From positions 328,840 through 365,067 of the forward strand of contig NZ_AXAR01000001.1 of the NCBI RefSeq assembly GCF_000472905.1: DNA of 36,228 bases, in the 5' to 3' direction. Under the pieces are notes generated by a model that saw only the letters and a list, made by a program, of their open reading frames with translations, was not told the DNA's origin and searched no databases. This stretch comes from Alicyclobacillus pomorum DSM 14955. Its GTDB lineage: Bacteria > Bacillota > Bacilli > Alicyclobacillales > Alicyclobacillaceae. The translations under genes and the position numbers were made by a program. This document shows positions 4,065-22,785 of this stretch, in pieces (positions within the stretch are counted from its first letter, which is position 1; every line of letters starts with the position of its first letter).

Positions 4065-4250
4065 TTGCTCGTATTGTTACTGATTCTCTTACTCGTCATT
4101 GCGATTGTTTGCACGTGGCTGCGAAGAAAATACGTCAAGTGGTTGTTTACGTTGTTGGCCGTGTTGTTTTGGATTGCTTTCCTGGCGTTGCTTGGATTTG
4201 TGATTGGATACTCGGTGGGGCAACACGGGTTTCAGGTGCTCAAGGTTTGA
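4065..4250 (+). CDS. Very small membrane protein, unknown function
   Basis: This is a hydrophobic peptide of about 61 residues with two predicted membrane helices separated by a basic loop (WLRRKYVKW) and a short hydrophilic C-terminus. A run of leucine, isoleucine and valine opens the protein. Two in-frame TTG codons are possible starts, 4059 and 4065. The AGGGAGAG at 4051-4058 sits only one base from the first but 6-7 bases from the second, so 4065 is preferred. The gene follows ispH by 77 bases and is closed by a strong terminator at 4284-4324, which supports real expression. I do not recognise a family and assign no function. Confidence 0.6.
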   Translation: MLVLLLILLLVIAIVCTWLRRKYVKWLFTLLAVLFWIAFLALLGFVIGYSVGQHGFQVLKV

Positions 4251-4283
4251 CTATAGTTCACATATGCGATTCTCGAATGGAAC

Positions 4284-4330
4284 AGTAAGTCCCCCTGTCA
4301 CTGTCATTGGCAGGGGGACTTACTTTTTTG
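4284..4330 (+). terminator. Strong intrinsic terminator
   Basis: A perfect 14-base-pair stem (arms 4284-4297 and 4311-4324, containing AGTCCCCCTG) encloses a 13-base loop and is followed directly by a T-run in 4324-4329. It ends the pncB-ispH-small membrane protein transcript. Confidence 0.93.
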
Positions 4331-4355
4331 CAACGGGAATCGGGAAACACACCAG

Positions 4356-4472
4356 GCGTTTTGCAAGTCACTAATGAGAGATTGGTTCAGCGCAATACAT
4401 AGTGTTTCCGGCTGTAGGGAAACACAACATTTAAATGTGCTGAACCAATTCAGGTGGGAACTTGCAAAACGC
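4356..4472. repeat. Nested inverted repeats forming a large potential cruciform or RNA structure
   Basis: Three sets of complementary arms are nested in one another. The outer pair GCGTTTTGCAAGT (4356-4368) matches ACTTGCAAAACGC (4460-4472). The middle pair ATTGGTTCAGC (4381-4391) matches GCTGAACCAAT (4439-4449). The inner pair GTGTTTCC (4402-4409) matches GGAAACAC (4418-4425). A separate 12-base palindrome ACATTTAAATGT lies at 4427-4438. The arrangement sits between a terminator and the proline dehydrogenase promoter, so it is probably not part of either flanking transcript unless an unseen promoter exists. No ORF or known RNA family was recognised. Confidence 0.8.
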
Positions 4473-4538
4473 AAGGGACATCGAAACGTGCTCAACCCAT
4501 TCAAACAGAAATTTGCAAAACGAAAGCAACATCAAATG
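4437..4538. repeat. Two imperfect tandem copies of a 51-bp unit
   Basis: The first unit (4437-4487) and second unit (4488-4538) align without gaps. Shared blocks are GTGCTxAACC, ATTCA, TTGCAAAACG (4462-4471 and 4513-4522) and ACATCxAA. The first unit also supplies the right arms of the outer and middle inverted repeats at 4356-4472, so the motif [GCTgAACCaAT, 10-12 bases, TTGCAAAACG] occurs three times here, once inverted. It may be a regulator-binding array, an RNA element or a decayed mobile repeat. Confidence 0.75.
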
Positions 4539-4578
4539 CTGCAAAATCTTCCGTTAAGCGCGTCACTGAGAATGCGTG

Positions 4579-4584
4579 TATAAT
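4579..4584 (+). promoter_or_regulatory. Probable -10 element of the proline dehydrogenase promoter
   Basis: A perfect TATAAT lies 53 bases before the proline dehydrogenase ATG. No good -35 hexamer is found at 16-18 bases; TTAAGC at 4555-4560 is the nearest T-rich candidate. The tandem 51-bp repeats end about 40 bases upstream, which is where an activator could bind. Confidence 0.6.
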
Positions 4585-4637
4585 AGACGGCGGATTGTTA
4601 CCTTTTTTCTTGCTGTGAAGAAACGGAGGCTTAGTAC

Positions 4638-5552
4638 ATGGAGCAGTTGATGCGTTCGTTGTTCTTGTCGATGGCACAGAATCGCGCTGCAAACCGATGG
4701 GCGAAACGTTACGGATTGAGGCTGGGTGCACAGCGATTTGTGGCAGGCGAGACCATTGACGACGCCATTCGTGTTGTGCGTACGCTCAACCAGCAGGGTA
4801 TGACAGTCACCCTGGACCACTTGGGCGAGTTCGTGAATGATGAATCTGAGGCAAACGAGGCCGCCGACTATTGCGTAAGGACGCTGGAGGCAATTCATGC
4901 GTCCGGTGTGGATGCGTCTCTCTCATTGAAAATGACGCAGACGGGACTCGATATCAGCCGCGAATTGTGCATGAGCAACATGCGGCGGATTCTCGATGTC
5001 GCCAAGAAGTATGGACTGCTTGTCACTATTGATATGGAAGACTTTTCGCATTGCCAAATCACGCTGGATATTTTGGACGAATTGCGTAAGGACTACGACA
5101 ATGTTGGCACAGTCATCCAGGCCTACCTGTACCGCAGCCTTGAGGATGTACAGCGGCTGGGCGCTGAGGGCGTACATCTGCGCATTGTGAAAGGCGCCTA
5201 TAAGGAACCTCCTGAAGTCGCGTTCCCTGACAAGGCGGATGTGGACGCCAACTACATTAAATTGATGGAAGCGCAATTGTTGAGCAAAGGATTTACGGCG
5301 ATTGCCACGCACGACGAAAAGATGATTGAACACGCAAAATCGTTTATTGCAAAGCACAATATTCCGAAGGAAAAATACGAATTTCAGATGCTTTACGGTA
5401 TTCGTACCAATTTGCAGCAGCAGTTGGTCAGAGAGGGGTATCCGATGCGCGTGTACGTCCCGTACGGAAATGATTGGTACGGCTACTTTATGCGACGTCT
5501 CGCGGAACGTCCAGCCAACGTTGGATTCGTATTGAAAGGAATGTTCAATTAA
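4638..5552 (+). CDS. putB: Proline dehydrogenase, monofunctional
   Basis: This FAD enzyme oxidises L-proline to pyrroline-5-carboxylate and passes electrons to the respiratory chain at the membrane surface. The 304-residue length fits the monofunctional Gram-positive ProDH. It has the (beta-alpha)8 barrel motifs TLDHLGE, SLKMTQTG, TIDMEDF, QAYLYRS, RIVKGAYKE, IATHDE and FQMLYG, and the C-terminal VPYGNDWYGYFMRRLAERP helix that binds proline (the RR pair). The ATG at 4638 follows GGAGG at 4625-4629. The partner P5C dehydrogenase is not adjacent. Transcription probably starts at the -10 element at 4579-4584 and ends at the hairpin at 5589-5617. Confidence 0.95.
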   Translation: MEQLMRSLFLSMAQNRAANRWAKRYGLRLGAQRFVAGETIDDAIRVVRTLNQQGMTVTLDHLGEFVNDESEANEAADYCVRTLEAIHASGVDASLSLKMTQTGLDISRELCMSNMRRILDVAKKYGLLVTIDMEDFSHCQITLDILDELRKDYDNVGTVIQAYLYRSLEDVQRLGAEGVHLRIVKGAYKEPPEVAFPDKADVDANYIKLMEAQLLSKGFTAIATHDEKMIEHAKSFIAKHNIPKEKYEFQMLYGIRTNLQQQLVREGYPMRVYVPYGNDWYGYFMRRLAERPANVGFVLKGMFN

Positions 5553-8502: not shown

Positions 8503-8565
8503 GGTTCGGGAACAGTCAGGTCTATGGGATACGCACAGAGTTGAATGGAGAAAGGGGTATGTAAC

Positions 8566-9882
8566 GTGAAGAGCAGATGGTTGAAAGCGGCATCCGTTGC
8601 GATGGTTGGATCCATCTCCACCTTCGGCCTCGTGGCCTGCGGGAACGGGGGTGGTGGCAATAACACGGGCAACAGCGGAGGAACCGTCGAGATTACGTTC
8701 TGGCATCCCTGGACGGCAGCGGACCAAGGCCCAATCAATGCTGTAGTCGACGAGTTTAACAAGACGCACAAAGATGTGCACGTCACGGCCATCGGAAACC
8801 AGAATAACCAGAAGCAGACCATCGCCTTAGCGGGCGGATCACCCCCGGATATCATCCTGACGGCATCCACCAACATCATTCCGTGGGCGGGTCAAGGGGC
8901 GATTGAACCGCTTGATTCGGACATAAAGCAGAGCAACTTCAGCACAGCCCAATTCATTCCAGGGTTGATGACGGACTTGGAGTACAACGGTCATACCTAC
9001 GCGCTGCCTTACAGCGTGGGGATTGAGAGCGCACTCTTGTACAACAAGAAAGATTTCCAGGCTGCCGGCATCAAGAGTCCGCCCAAGACGCTCAACGAGC
9101 TGTACGCTGATGCGCAGAAGCTGACGAAGCGAGACAGCGCTGGGAACATCACGCAAATTGGGTTTATGCCCGATTTTCCGTGGTTCGACCCTGTGTTCTG
9201 GCCACTGGTTTTCGGCGGAAAGTTCTACGACCCAGCGGCCAAACAGGTCACACCGACGGATCCAGCGAACATCCAGGCGTTGGAGTACGAGCGCAAATTC
9301 TATCAACTGTATGGCGCCAACCAGATGAACAAGTTCAAATCCGGCTTCGGCAAGCTCGGCACGCCGAACGATCCGCTCGTGACCGGCCAGCTGGCGATGG
9401 AGATGGGGTGGGACTACACGGACGCACAGTACAGGGGCGATAATGGCCCCATCGGCGTGGCTCCGTTCCCGTATCCGGACGGCCATCCTGAACTCGCCGG
9501 CGCCGGCCTGATGGGTTCCGACGCGGTGTTCATCCCAGCAAAGTCCAAGCATAAGCAGGCTGCGTGGGAGTTTCTGCAGTGGATGGTGGGCGAGAAGCCG
9601 CAAATTCTGTTCTCCAAGGAAGGAAACTCCATCCCATCGGTCACGGCGGCGTTGACCGATCCATCGTTGGTCGATGATCCGAAGATGAAAGTGATGGATC
9701 CGTTCTTCAAAATGGCATCCAGTCATAATTTGGGTGCCTTCCCTGCAAGCACATACGCGGCGAAGTATGCCCAGGCACTGATTGACGAAGGGCAGAAGGT
9801 ATTGCTTGGACAGGAAAGCGCGGCGGCTGCGATGGCGCAGGTCAAGCAGCAGATTCAACCGCTCGTCGGCCAAGGGAACTAG
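8566..9882 (+). CDS. CUT1-type sugar ABC transporter, substrate-binding lipoprotein
   Basis: This is the extracellular, lipid-anchored binding protein of a carbohydrate importer. The lipobox LVAC places the acylated cysteine at residue 25, followed by a glycine/asparagine-rich linker (GNGGGGNNTGNSGG). The mature part has family-1 hallmarks: VEITFWHPW, LAGGSPPDIILT, LPYSVGIESALLYNKKDFQAAGI, and the AAWEFLQWM helix. The length is 438 residues. The chosen start is GTG 8566, with AAAGGGG at 8550-8556; an ATG at 8545 lies before that site and would disrupt the signal peptide. The gene lies 63 bases after the DUF4855 gene and before two permeases. Ligand is unknown, but a product of the DUF4855 protein is a reasonable guess. 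Confidence 0.92.
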   Translation: MKSRWLKAASVAMVGSISTFGLVACGNGGGGNNTGNSGGTVEITFWHPWTAADQGPINAVVDEFNKTHKDVHVTAIGNQNNQKQTIALAGGSPPDIILTASTNIIPWAGQGAIEPLDSDIKQSNFSTAQFIPGLMTDLEYNGHTYALPYSVGIESALLYNKKDFQAAGIKSPPKTLNELYADAQKLTKRDSAGNITQIGFMPDFPWFDPVFWPLVFGGKFYDPAAKQVTPTDPANIQALEYERKFYQLYGANQMNKFKSGFGKLGTPNDPLVTGQLAMEMGWDYTDAQYRGDNGPIGVAPFPYPDGHPELAGAGLMGSDAVFIPAKSKHKQAAWEFLQWMVGEKPQILFSKEGNSIPSVTAALTDPSLVDDPKMKVMDPFFKMASSHNLGAFPASTYAAKYAQALIDEGQKVLLGQESAAAAMAQVKQQIQPLVGQGN

Positions 9883-9988
9883 GTCGGCGATGTGCAACGC
9901 ACACGGTATCTCGTCCTGCTGAACCAAGCCATCGGACTGTTGCAAATCGCTTAGGTATTTACCACCGCTCAGGCGTGTATCGGACCAG

Positions 9989-10104: not shown

Positions 10105-11040
10105 ATGAGCGCAAGCACAGTGAATGCGAACTTGTTGGGAATCCGCAGCCGGCGACGCAAGGCCTTGTTGGTTGGTTTGTTATTCGCGAGCCCCTGGATC
10201 CTAGGCTTTTTGATCTTTCAACTCTACCCCATTCTCATCTCGTTTTACTACAGCTTGACCGATTATCATTTGATGTCGGCTCCGCATTTTACGGGATTGA
10301 AGAATTACCAGGACCTGTTTCGGGATCCAAAGTTCTATCAGTCTCTGTACAATACCATCTACATCACCATTTTCGGCTTTGTGCCGCAGCTGGCGTTCTC
10401 GTTATTTATCGCGTTGTTGCTGAACATGAACGTAAAAGGGCAATCCATCTACCGTACCATCTTTTTCTTGCCGACCATTGTACCGCTCGTTGCCAGTTCC
10501 TTGCTGTGGATGTGGCTACTGAATGGTGAGCACGGGCTTGTGAACGAAATCTTGCGGAGTCTAGGGATGGGGCAACCGGCTTGGCTGGCTGATCCCAACT
10601 GGACGAAACCAGCCTTAATCTTGATGGGGTTCTGGGGAACCGGAATTGGTACGGTGATGTACCTTGCGGCACTACAGGACGTGCCGCGCGAGTACTACGA
10701 GGCGGCGGCAATTGACGGGGCCGGACCGTGGCAGCGGTTCTGGAAAATTACGTTCCCTTCGATTTCGCCGATGACGCTCTTTCAATTGATTACAGGGTTG
10801 ATTGGTTCGTTCCAATATTTCACGCAAGCGTACGTATTTGCGAACGATCCGAACAACATCGGTGGACCCGGCGGCTCGATGTTGTTCTATGCCACTTATC
10901 TCTACCAGCAAGCGTTTTCGTTCCTCGACATGGGGTACGCTTCAGCAATGGCGTGGGTGCTCTTCGTCATTGTCCTGGTCCTCACGATTCTGGTGTTTCG
11001 CACTTCCGCGAGATGGGTGTACTACGGAGGCGAAAAGTGA
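10105..11040 (+). CDS. Sugar ABC transporter permease (MalF/UgpA type)
   Basis: The 311-residue inner-membrane permease has six predicted helices, starting with LLVGLLFASPWILGFLIFQL, and the cytoplasmic EAA loop EYYEAAAIDGAGPWQRF (about residues 197-213) that docks the ATPase. The frame is open from 9994, but ATG 10105 is preceded by GAAGGAGTGG and gives the normal basic N-terminus, so it is chosen. The stop TGA (11038-11040) overlaps the ATG of the next permease by one base, showing translational coupling. It pairs with the binding protein at 8566. No ATP-binding subunit is encoded in the window, so a shared MsmX/MsmK-type ATPase elsewhere is presumed. Confidence 0.93.
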   Translation: MSASTVNANLLGIRSRRRKALLVGLLFASPWILGFLIFQLYPILISFYYSLTDYHLMSAPHFTGLKNYQDLFRDPKFYQSLYNTIYITIFGFVPQLAFSLFIALLLNMNVKGQSIYRTIFFLPTIVPLVASSLLWMWLLNGEHGLVNEILRSLGMGQPAWLADPNWTKPALILMGFWGTGIGTVMYLAALQDVPREYYEAAAIDGAGPWQRFWKITFPSISPMTLFQLITGLIGSFQYFTQAYVFANDPNNIGGPGGSMLFYATYLYQQAFSFLDMGYASAMAWVLFVIVLVLTILVFRTSARWVYYGGEK

Positions 11041-21718: not shown

Positions 21719-22741
21719 ATGATGAAACTTGCGGTTCTTAGTTTTTGGCACGTCCATGCGAAGGAATACGCAGACCAAGCCGAACAACACCCGGATACGG
21801 AAATTGTGGCGATTTGGGATGAGGATCCAAAGCGGGGTGAAGCCGAGGCGGCGAAACGTGGGGCGCGGTTTTTCGCCAATCTCGATGACCTTCTGGCACA
21901 ACCGGACATCGACGGCGTCATTGTGACCACGCCGACAACAGATCACCACGACGTCATTGTGCGGGCAGCGCGGGCCGGCAAACACATTTTTACGGAAAAA
22001 GTCCTTGCGCCGACGCTGGCCGAGTGCAACCAAATTCTCGCGGCAGTTGCTGAAGCCGGGGTCAAATTGATGGTTTCTCTGCCCAGGCTCAATACGGGAT
22101 CCACACAAGCGATTCAAGAGATCCTCGCTCAGGGGTTACTGGGGCAATTGACGCTAGTCCGAGTTCGGTTGTCTCACAATGGAGCCATCCCGAGTGATGG
22201 CGCTGCAAGTGGTTGGTTGCCTGAACACTTTTACAATTTGGCTCAGTGTGGTGGAGGGGCGCTGATAGACCTCGGCTGTCATCCCATGTATTTGGCCCGT
22301 CTCTTCGCCGGATTACCTGAGAGTGTGTCGGCCAATTATGGCTATGTCACCGATAGACAAGTGGAGGACAATGCCGTCGCCATCCTGCGGTATCGGAATG
22401 GAGCCATCGGCGTCGTCGAGGCGGGATTTGTAAACCCGCACTCTCCGTTTTCTATTGAGATTCACGGAACGCATGGAAGTTTATTTTACGGCACCCCAGA
22501 AAACAAGTTGTGGGTTCGCAGTTCAATGCAACGTACGTCTGACGCGAACTGGGTGGCGTTAGAGCAATTCCCTCCCGACAAGCCGTCTGCTTTCGAGCAG
22601 TGGATTACACACATTCAACGAGGTACGACGGCTGCTGAGAACATTGAAATGGCTGTAGATTTGACCCGGTTGATGGAAGCGTCGAATCGATCCGTCATGG
22701 AACACAAGCCCATTTATCTGAGCGATTTGCAAAATTCCTGA
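21719..22741 (+). CDS. Gfo/Idh/MocA family oxidoreductase 3 (divergent cofactor motif)
   Basis: The 340-residue protein has the two-domain Gfo/Idh layout but an unusual N-terminus: the glycine-rich loop GxGxxG is replaced by LSFWHVHAKEYA (about residues 7-18). The EKP motif is TEKV (E93, K94, V95), so the catalytic lysine stays and the proline is lost. The C-terminal domain has GGGALIDLGCHPMYLA with a DLGCH motif. Such HxH-containing N-termini occur in a subgroup of the family found in carbohydrate clusters. ATG 21719 (or the next codon, 21722) follows GGGAGG at 21705-21710. NAD(P) binding is likely but its mode may differ. It starts the third plus-strand operon (21719-26915). Confidence 0.85.
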   Translation: MMKLAVLSFWHVHAKEYADQAEQHPDTEIVAIWDEDPKRGEAEAAKRGARFFANLDDLLAQPDIDGVIVTTPTTDHHDVIVRAARAGKHIFTEKVLAPTLAECNQILAAVAEAGVKLMVSLPRLNTGSTQAIQEILAQGLLGQLTLVRVRLSHNGAIPSDGAASGWLPEHFYNLAQCGGGALIDLGCHPMYLARLFAGLPESVSANYGYVTDRQVEDNAVAILRYRNGAIGVVEAGFVNPHSPFSIEIHGTHGSLFYGTPENKLWVRSSMQRTSDANWVALEQFPPDKPSAFEQWITHIQRGTTAAENIEMAVDLTRLMEASNRSVMEHKPIYLSDLQNS

Positions 22742-22785
22742 GTGGTTCAGCACGAAAGAAGACATACCGTGAGAGGGATATTGAC

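Follow-up and report, generated by a model that had tools for sequence, protein, structure and literature searches.

Short modular repeats and MITEs in bacterial genomes

The BOX elements of Streptococcus pneumoniae, of which 125 are present in the strain studied, are described as short composite repeats built of ~50-nt modules, with the middle module present in variable number; they fold strongly, are regarded as parasitic and are enriched between convergent genes (PMC3049150). The BrickBuilt element of Porphyromonas gingivalis is characterised as an intergenic MITE with a 23-nt tandem unit and insertion-sequence-like ends, these ends being reported as most like those of the insertion sequences of P. 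gingivalis itself (PMC4596501). Correia elements and ERIC are presented as short intergenic palindromic repeats for which RNA effects have been reported (PMC3049150, PMC10969869), and the definition of a MITE that we apply is taken from the same group of accounts (PMC3049150, PMC4596501, PMC10969869). Our search of the literature found no account of the repeat family described below, nor of any Alicyclobacillus MITE.

The repeat that concerns us lies upstream of a proline dehydrogenase gene in Alicyclobacillus pomorum DSM 14955, within a stretch of 36,228 nucleotides (the window, whose numbering is used here). A first-pass annotation had offered three readings of it: a multi-site regulator array for proline use, an unseen small RNA, or a mobile repeat that has decayed. 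The last of these is supported, and we conclude that the repeat is very probably a compound, partly deleted and decayed copy of a modular MITE family. In architecture the family appears closest to BOX and BrickBuilt, a likeness by description for which homology is not claimed. On the published descriptions, it resembles BOX in having around a hundred or more copies, a ~50-nt module in variable number and a strong fold, the comparison being one of architecture only. It resembles BrickBuilt, as that element is described, in being an intergenic MITE that contains a tandem repeat and has insertion-sequence-like ends, but its unit is 51 bp rather than 23 nt, and only in other species did an insertion sequence with matching ends turn up. 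Its likeness to Correia elements and ERIC, as short intergenic palindromic repeats, is again by description and not by sequence.

Structure of the repeat upstream of putA

The proline dehydrogenase gene, putA, occupies 4638..5552 on the + strand and matches NF045947 with 305.6 bits over 2-302, a score under the curated cut-off of 500. Just upstream of the gene, and just downstream of the repeat, is the native putA promoter block GTCAC..GTGTATAATA (4562..4585, + strand, aligned by eye), which is common to the window and the sister species G001 and in which TATAAT can be read at 4579-4584. On the other side of the repeat is an intrinsic-terminator-like hairpin on the + strand (4284-4324, with a tail to 4333), for which membership of the family is not implied; it is absent from the corresponding syntenic gap of G001 in an alignment by eye. 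The placement of the repeat between a terminator and a -10 element, as given in the first-pass annotation, is therefore correct.

Both the nested inverted arms and the tandem 51-base units reported earlier at ~4340-4550 were recovered in a repeat search. The tandem units form a direct repeat of 51 nt (4427-4477 and 4478-4528, 73% identity), and the arms comprise a perfect inverted pair of 13 nt (4356-4368 and 4460-4472, 100%) and a second pair of 14 nt (4381-4394 and 4436-4449, 93%). The short repeat that had been seen at 4342 and 4417 was found as GGGAAACACACCA, 13 nt in length, at 4342-4354 and 4417-4429 (92%). The long folded structure proposed at the same time is borne out by RNA folding, 4330-4560 reaching -77.6 kcal/mol where shuffled sequence averages -49.4 (sd 3.9; z -7.2, with 0 of 200 shuffles as good).

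Read as modules, all of them on the - strand, the repeat begins with a truncated left-end module, AGTGACTTGCAAAACGCCTGGTGTGTTTCCC (4342..4372), the remnant of a copy of a 91-93-bp type; a blastn search of the same genome places it at 94% over 31 bp to C8:56218-56248. There follows a 118-bp three-tier core (4355..4473), recognised from its inverted repeats and from its match to a covariance model of the 118-bp form, R1 (E 1e-21, the window copy itself being among the 10 used to build the model). The core consists of outer arms, middle arms (TGGTTCAGC(G/A)CA) and an inner hairpin (GTGTTTCC..GGAAACAC). The first tandem copy of the 51-bp module (4427..4477) overlaps one side of the core and the second follows directly (4478..4528), with bases 4462-4522 matching four other places in the genome at 70-76% by blastn. 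The last piece, GATTTTGCA..GCATTTGATGTTGC (4529..4550), is probably what an internal deletion has left of a third module together with an outer end, to judge by eye from the other copies. No clean target duplication and no intact outer ends were found around this compound, decayed copy. The copy at C31:9837-10025 is compound in much the same way, a 118-bp core being joined there, as in the window, to part of a copy of the 91-93-bp type.

A fold of this strength might be that of a free small-RNA gene, but nothing was found in support of this. An Rfam scan of the window gave 0 matches above the gathering threshold, and a promoter scan of 4200-4700 found no promoter-like site, this being a weak negative because the putA -10 block was missed by the same scan. 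The fold is moreover accounted for by palindromes present throughout the family, a 118-bp copy elsewhere in the genome folding with z -9.4, and we consider a small-RNA gene highly improbable.

A dispersed and mostly intergenic family

The analysis covered one genome of the species, a draft in 36 contigs. In it, the outer arm TTTTGCAAATCGCT occurs 162 times (78+84) with up to one mismatch, compared with once for a reversed control, and a blastn search with 4330-4560 identifies 10 further places at E ≤1e-3, two of them overlapping. Scattered copies in such number are what the decayed mobile repeat reading called for. Among the matches listed, which cover ~100 of the 162 end places, there are at least 47 two-ended copies of 45-169 bp; these were drawn from ~314 kb around the listed end places, with four overlapping pairings dropped. 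None carries a transposase gene. The copies are thus of MITE size, are multiple and dispersed, and have the terminal inverted repeats of a MITE, although in the window copy these have decayed.

The lengths of the 47 copies form a ladder, with 20 of 45-55 bp, 13 of 65-74 bp, five of 85-93 bp, one of 107 bp, six of 118-121 bp, one of 130 bp and one of 169 bp. The longest can be read as the 118-bp form plus one 51-bp unit (169 = 118+51), the unit that is found in tandem in the window. Ten aligned copies of the 118-bp form have a mean pairwise identity of 74%, the window copy being 66% identical to the others. A further 42 ends (≤1 mismatch) in the fetched DNA have no partner, and truncated copies must therefore be common. 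The window itself contains two more copies. One, identified by eye, is a decayed copy of the 68-bp type (9886..9951, - strand) between the gene at 8545-9882 and that at 10105; the other is a truncated copy on the + strand (22721..22754) that retains only the left end and the middle arm, with an exact outer end at 22721-22734, inside a called gene, and the middle arm at 22743-22754.

Using gene calls from a simple home-made caller, by which 81% of 321 kb is coding, 42 of the 47 copies lie wholly outside called genes, and for 45 the overlap is 30% or less. The 46 copies that could be classed (one lies at an edge) fall in tandem gaps in 28 cases, divergent gaps in 11 and convergent gaps in seven. 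These figures track gap length in the same DNA, of which 59, 30 and 11% is tandem, divergent and convergent, shares that include the gaps that hold the copies. The enrichment between convergent genes reported for BOX is not clearly seen in this family, with seven of 46 copies set against 11% of gap length. Copies or single ends adjoin genes encoding a homoserine dehydrogenase, an Nramp-type transporter, a GAD-domain class II tRNA synthetase and a phosphoglucomutase-like enzyme.

Signs of past transposition

Whilst the window copy has no recognisable target duplication, the family as a whole does. In 11 of the 47 copies the 4 bp adjoining the outer base are exactly duplicated, where shuffles average 0.76; for 5 bp the figures are five of 47 and 0.11, and in neither case did any of 300 shuffles reach the observed count. 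These are two of 175 settings of length and offset that were scanned. A neighbouring offset gives the strongest excess, with 3 bp duplicated in 15 of 47 copies (1.69 in shuffles). At the 4-bp setting quoted, 36 of the 47 copies have no exact duplication. Six of the 47 copies could not be oriented; in the other 41, G predominates as the base just outside each end (35 of 41 and 38 of 41), with an A/T-rich target beyond it.

Many short, palindromic and mostly intergenic copies would also be expected of a repeat of the REP/REPIN type, mobilised by a Y1 (RAYT) transposase. A RAYT marks REP elements, and the genome contains no resident candidate, with 0 matches to PF01797 (Y1_Tnp); in addition, terminal inverted repeats with flank duplications are a better fit to a DDE element. 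An origin of the REP type is extremely unlikely, barring a diverged RAYT hidden in a gap of the assembly.

Distribution in related genomes

In the sister species G001, tblastn identifies ispH (84% identical), a small ORF (59%) and putA (86%) in the same order as in the window, and in an alignment by eye the short syntenic gap before putA contains no repeat. This bears directly on the proposal that the repeat is a multi-site regulator array or structured leader controlling proline use. Its position upstream of the -10 block and its strong fold would suit such a role, but the proposal is unsupported because the family adjoins unrelated genes and is absent from the sister's gap. The spread of copies over gap classes follows gap length and, since the repeat is upstream of the shared -10 block, a transcript from the putA promoter would not be expected to carry it. 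We regard control of proline use by the repeat as very unlikely; a local influence on putA, though possible, is unsupported.

Among the 41 genomes of the family Alicyclobacillaceae that were searched, the repeat family is expanded only in the window's species. Each of the 40 others has between 0 and 14 occurrences of the outer-arm motif, the one further member of the genus in the set having three, and blastn with the 231-bp stretch found nothing in these 40 relatives at E 0.01 and nothing in plasmids. The exact end 14-mers first inspected in G044, G048 and G052 appeared by eye to lie within coding sequence and were set aside. Wider scans for the paired-end pattern, in which records of the window's genome or its near relatives were possibly left out, gave 22 stretches in genome_contigs that by eye lack the inner modules of the family and 0 matches in viral_contigs.

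Model R1, built from the 10 copies of the 118-bp form, was run over the 41 genomes with strict filters, its E-values being rough. Beyond its own genome it found 25 matches in G044 and one each in G042, G049 and G052 (E ≤0.1). It also matched repeats in a different family within the order, with 18 matches in G034, six in G030, four in G040 and one in G033. The repeats of this other family (L200, L202, L203 and L206, in G030, G040, G033 and G034) are ~118-122 bp in length and have a similar three-tier nested palindrome, with different ends, mostly GGACATGTGATAAA; the fold of L200 has z -9.7. A link between them and one copy of the window family through an inner hairpin, TAGTGTTT, was examined and found weak and unconvincing, the match being reached by 184 of 20000 shuffles for the best-matching pair, which was picked post hoc. 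A similar style is also seen in L204, from another family of the order, a palindrome of 104 bp at G025:C8:19733-19836 whose ends are AGGATTTTGCATAAT.

A MITE and an insertion sequence in A. acidoterrestris

G044 is Alicyclobacillus acidoterrestris DSM 3922, and the matches there (locus L133 and others) correspond to a 117-bp element with ends GAGCGTTTTGCAGAATT. We examined 13 of the 25: all are ≥99.1% alike and all 13 have perfect target duplications, nine of 4 bp, three of 5 bp and one, identified by eye, of 7 bp. A copy of the element, identical at 116 of 117 bases, is present on plasmid NZ_CP080468.1 (96286-96402), where the gene table, itself incomplete, lists no feature for it. Like the window family, this MITE has related ends, target duplications of 4-5 bp and a nested palindrome. 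The two differ at their ends, with AGCGTTTTGCAGAATT in the A. acidoterrestris type against AGCGATTTGCAAAAT in the window family, and the outer base of one end is C in the former and G in the latter.

The same genome contains insertion sequences of ~1.45 kb (L160 and others) with ends that match those of the 117-bp MITE, and an insertion-sequence fragment in G044 has identical coordinates on NZ_CP080468.1. Unlike the window family these are autonomous, encoding a 400-amino acid DDE transposase with DDE_Tnp_1 and DUF772 domains. The transposase scores best against IS1182 (NCBIfam NF033551), with 206.5, 221.3 and 207.9 bits, and since these are under the curated cut-off of 270 we call it IS1182-like only. 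It has 36 matches in the genome, 16 of which span all 400 residues at ≥98% identity, and duplications of 4-5 bp are found at five of the eight insertion-sequence copies whose flanks were inspected. The 117-bp MITE, uniform in the 13 copies examined, looks young and shares its genome with its probable insertion sequence; none was found for the window family in its own genome.

The ends provide a connection to the window family. At both ends of seven copies of the A. acidoterrestris insertion sequence, 11 to 14 of 15 positions are identical to AGCGATTTGCAAAAT, the best match being an end of L168, AGCGTTTTGCAAAAT (14 of 15); for related insertion sequences of other family genomes, where it was possible to recognise the two ends, the figure is 12 or 13 of 15. 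Relatives of the transposase (E ≤1e-6) are present in 24 of the 41 genomes, but at E 1e-6 or better none was found in the window's genome assembly or in sister G001. Searches of the window's genome with DDE_Tnp_1, Y1_Tnp and DUF772 gave 0 matches, and none of ten ORFs scanned between distant ends has a transposase domain, nine having metabolic, transport or tRNA-synthetase domains and one no match. Because the transposase was not found in its own genome or the sister, the link to an insertion sequence rests on the likeness of the ends, the size of the duplications and a related MITE of another genus. On this comparison of sequences, mobilisation of the family by an IS1182-like lineage is likely.

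Is the fold under selection?

In the 10 copies of the 118-bp form, seven of 35 pairs have changed on both sides, compared with 2.8 in shuffles (one of 500 as high) and with three or fewer when the structure is slid along the alignment, a contrast that is partly built in because the structure was read from the same sequences. The clearest covarying pair closes the inner loop, where A-T, C-G, T-A and T-G all occur. Double changes that keep pairs are not expected from plain decay alone and count against the simplest form of the decayed-MITE reading. They make past selection on pairing possible, which may have acted on the DNA in the course of transposition.

Selection at the RNA level would follow if a mobile family such as this acted as RNA hairpins when transcribed (terminator, attenuator or RNase III site), with some copies kept by selection, and the reports on Correia and ERIC elements offer precedents (PMC3049150, PMC10969869). 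The covariation is in keeping with this, as are the deviations from Watson-Crick pairing on the canonical strand, where 34 pairs counted by hand yield 21 G-U against nine A-C. However, two columns supply eight of these 21 G-U cells, and the structure prediction is itself biased towards G-U. Across the outer arms of the 41 orientable copies G-U and A-C are equal, at 11 and 11. Nor is there a clear preference for convergent gaps, and strand bias in tandem gaps is not significant, a count by hand placing five copies on the strand of the genes and 11 on the opposite strand (16 labelled, two-sided p 0.21). The case for the fold working as RNA is a poor one, and we regard the family's acting as RNA hairpins as unlikely.

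A proposed history of the repeats as a MITE family

Taking the family to be a set of MITEs, intact copies would have two ends, (G)AGCGATTTGCAAAAT...ATTTTGCAAATCGCT, recognised by a DDE transposase acting in trans, and insertion would duplicate ~4-5 bp of the target. Between the ends would sit exchangeable palindromic modules (the 51-bp unit, the middle arms and the inner hairpin). The length ladder could have arisen as these were gained, lost or duplicated in tandem through slippage or recombination. The mobilising enzyme would most likely have belonged to an IS1182-like lineage that shares related ends with the sister MITE of A. acidoterrestris and may since have been lost. The family looks old and, in this assembly, orphaned, since the mobilising enzyme was not found in the genome and the copies average 74% identity.

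A more elaborate scheme would have the family as a self-shuffling system of palindromes, with modules carrying the 51-bp repeat kept in pairing by selection and some copies, that upstream of putA perhaps among them, recruited after loss of the transposase as host insulators or modifiers of expression. Selection would then act on the folded strand, either through hairpin-assisted transposition or through a role of the RNA. We think this quite improbable.

What appeared to be a proline regulator is thus better viewed as one member of a repeat family, and strongly folding intergenic repeats should not by default be taken for gene-specific switches. The ends tie the family to an insertion-sequence lineage and to the young sister MITE of A. 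acidoterrestris, which allows the origin and the decay of a modular bacterial MITE to be compared across two related genera.
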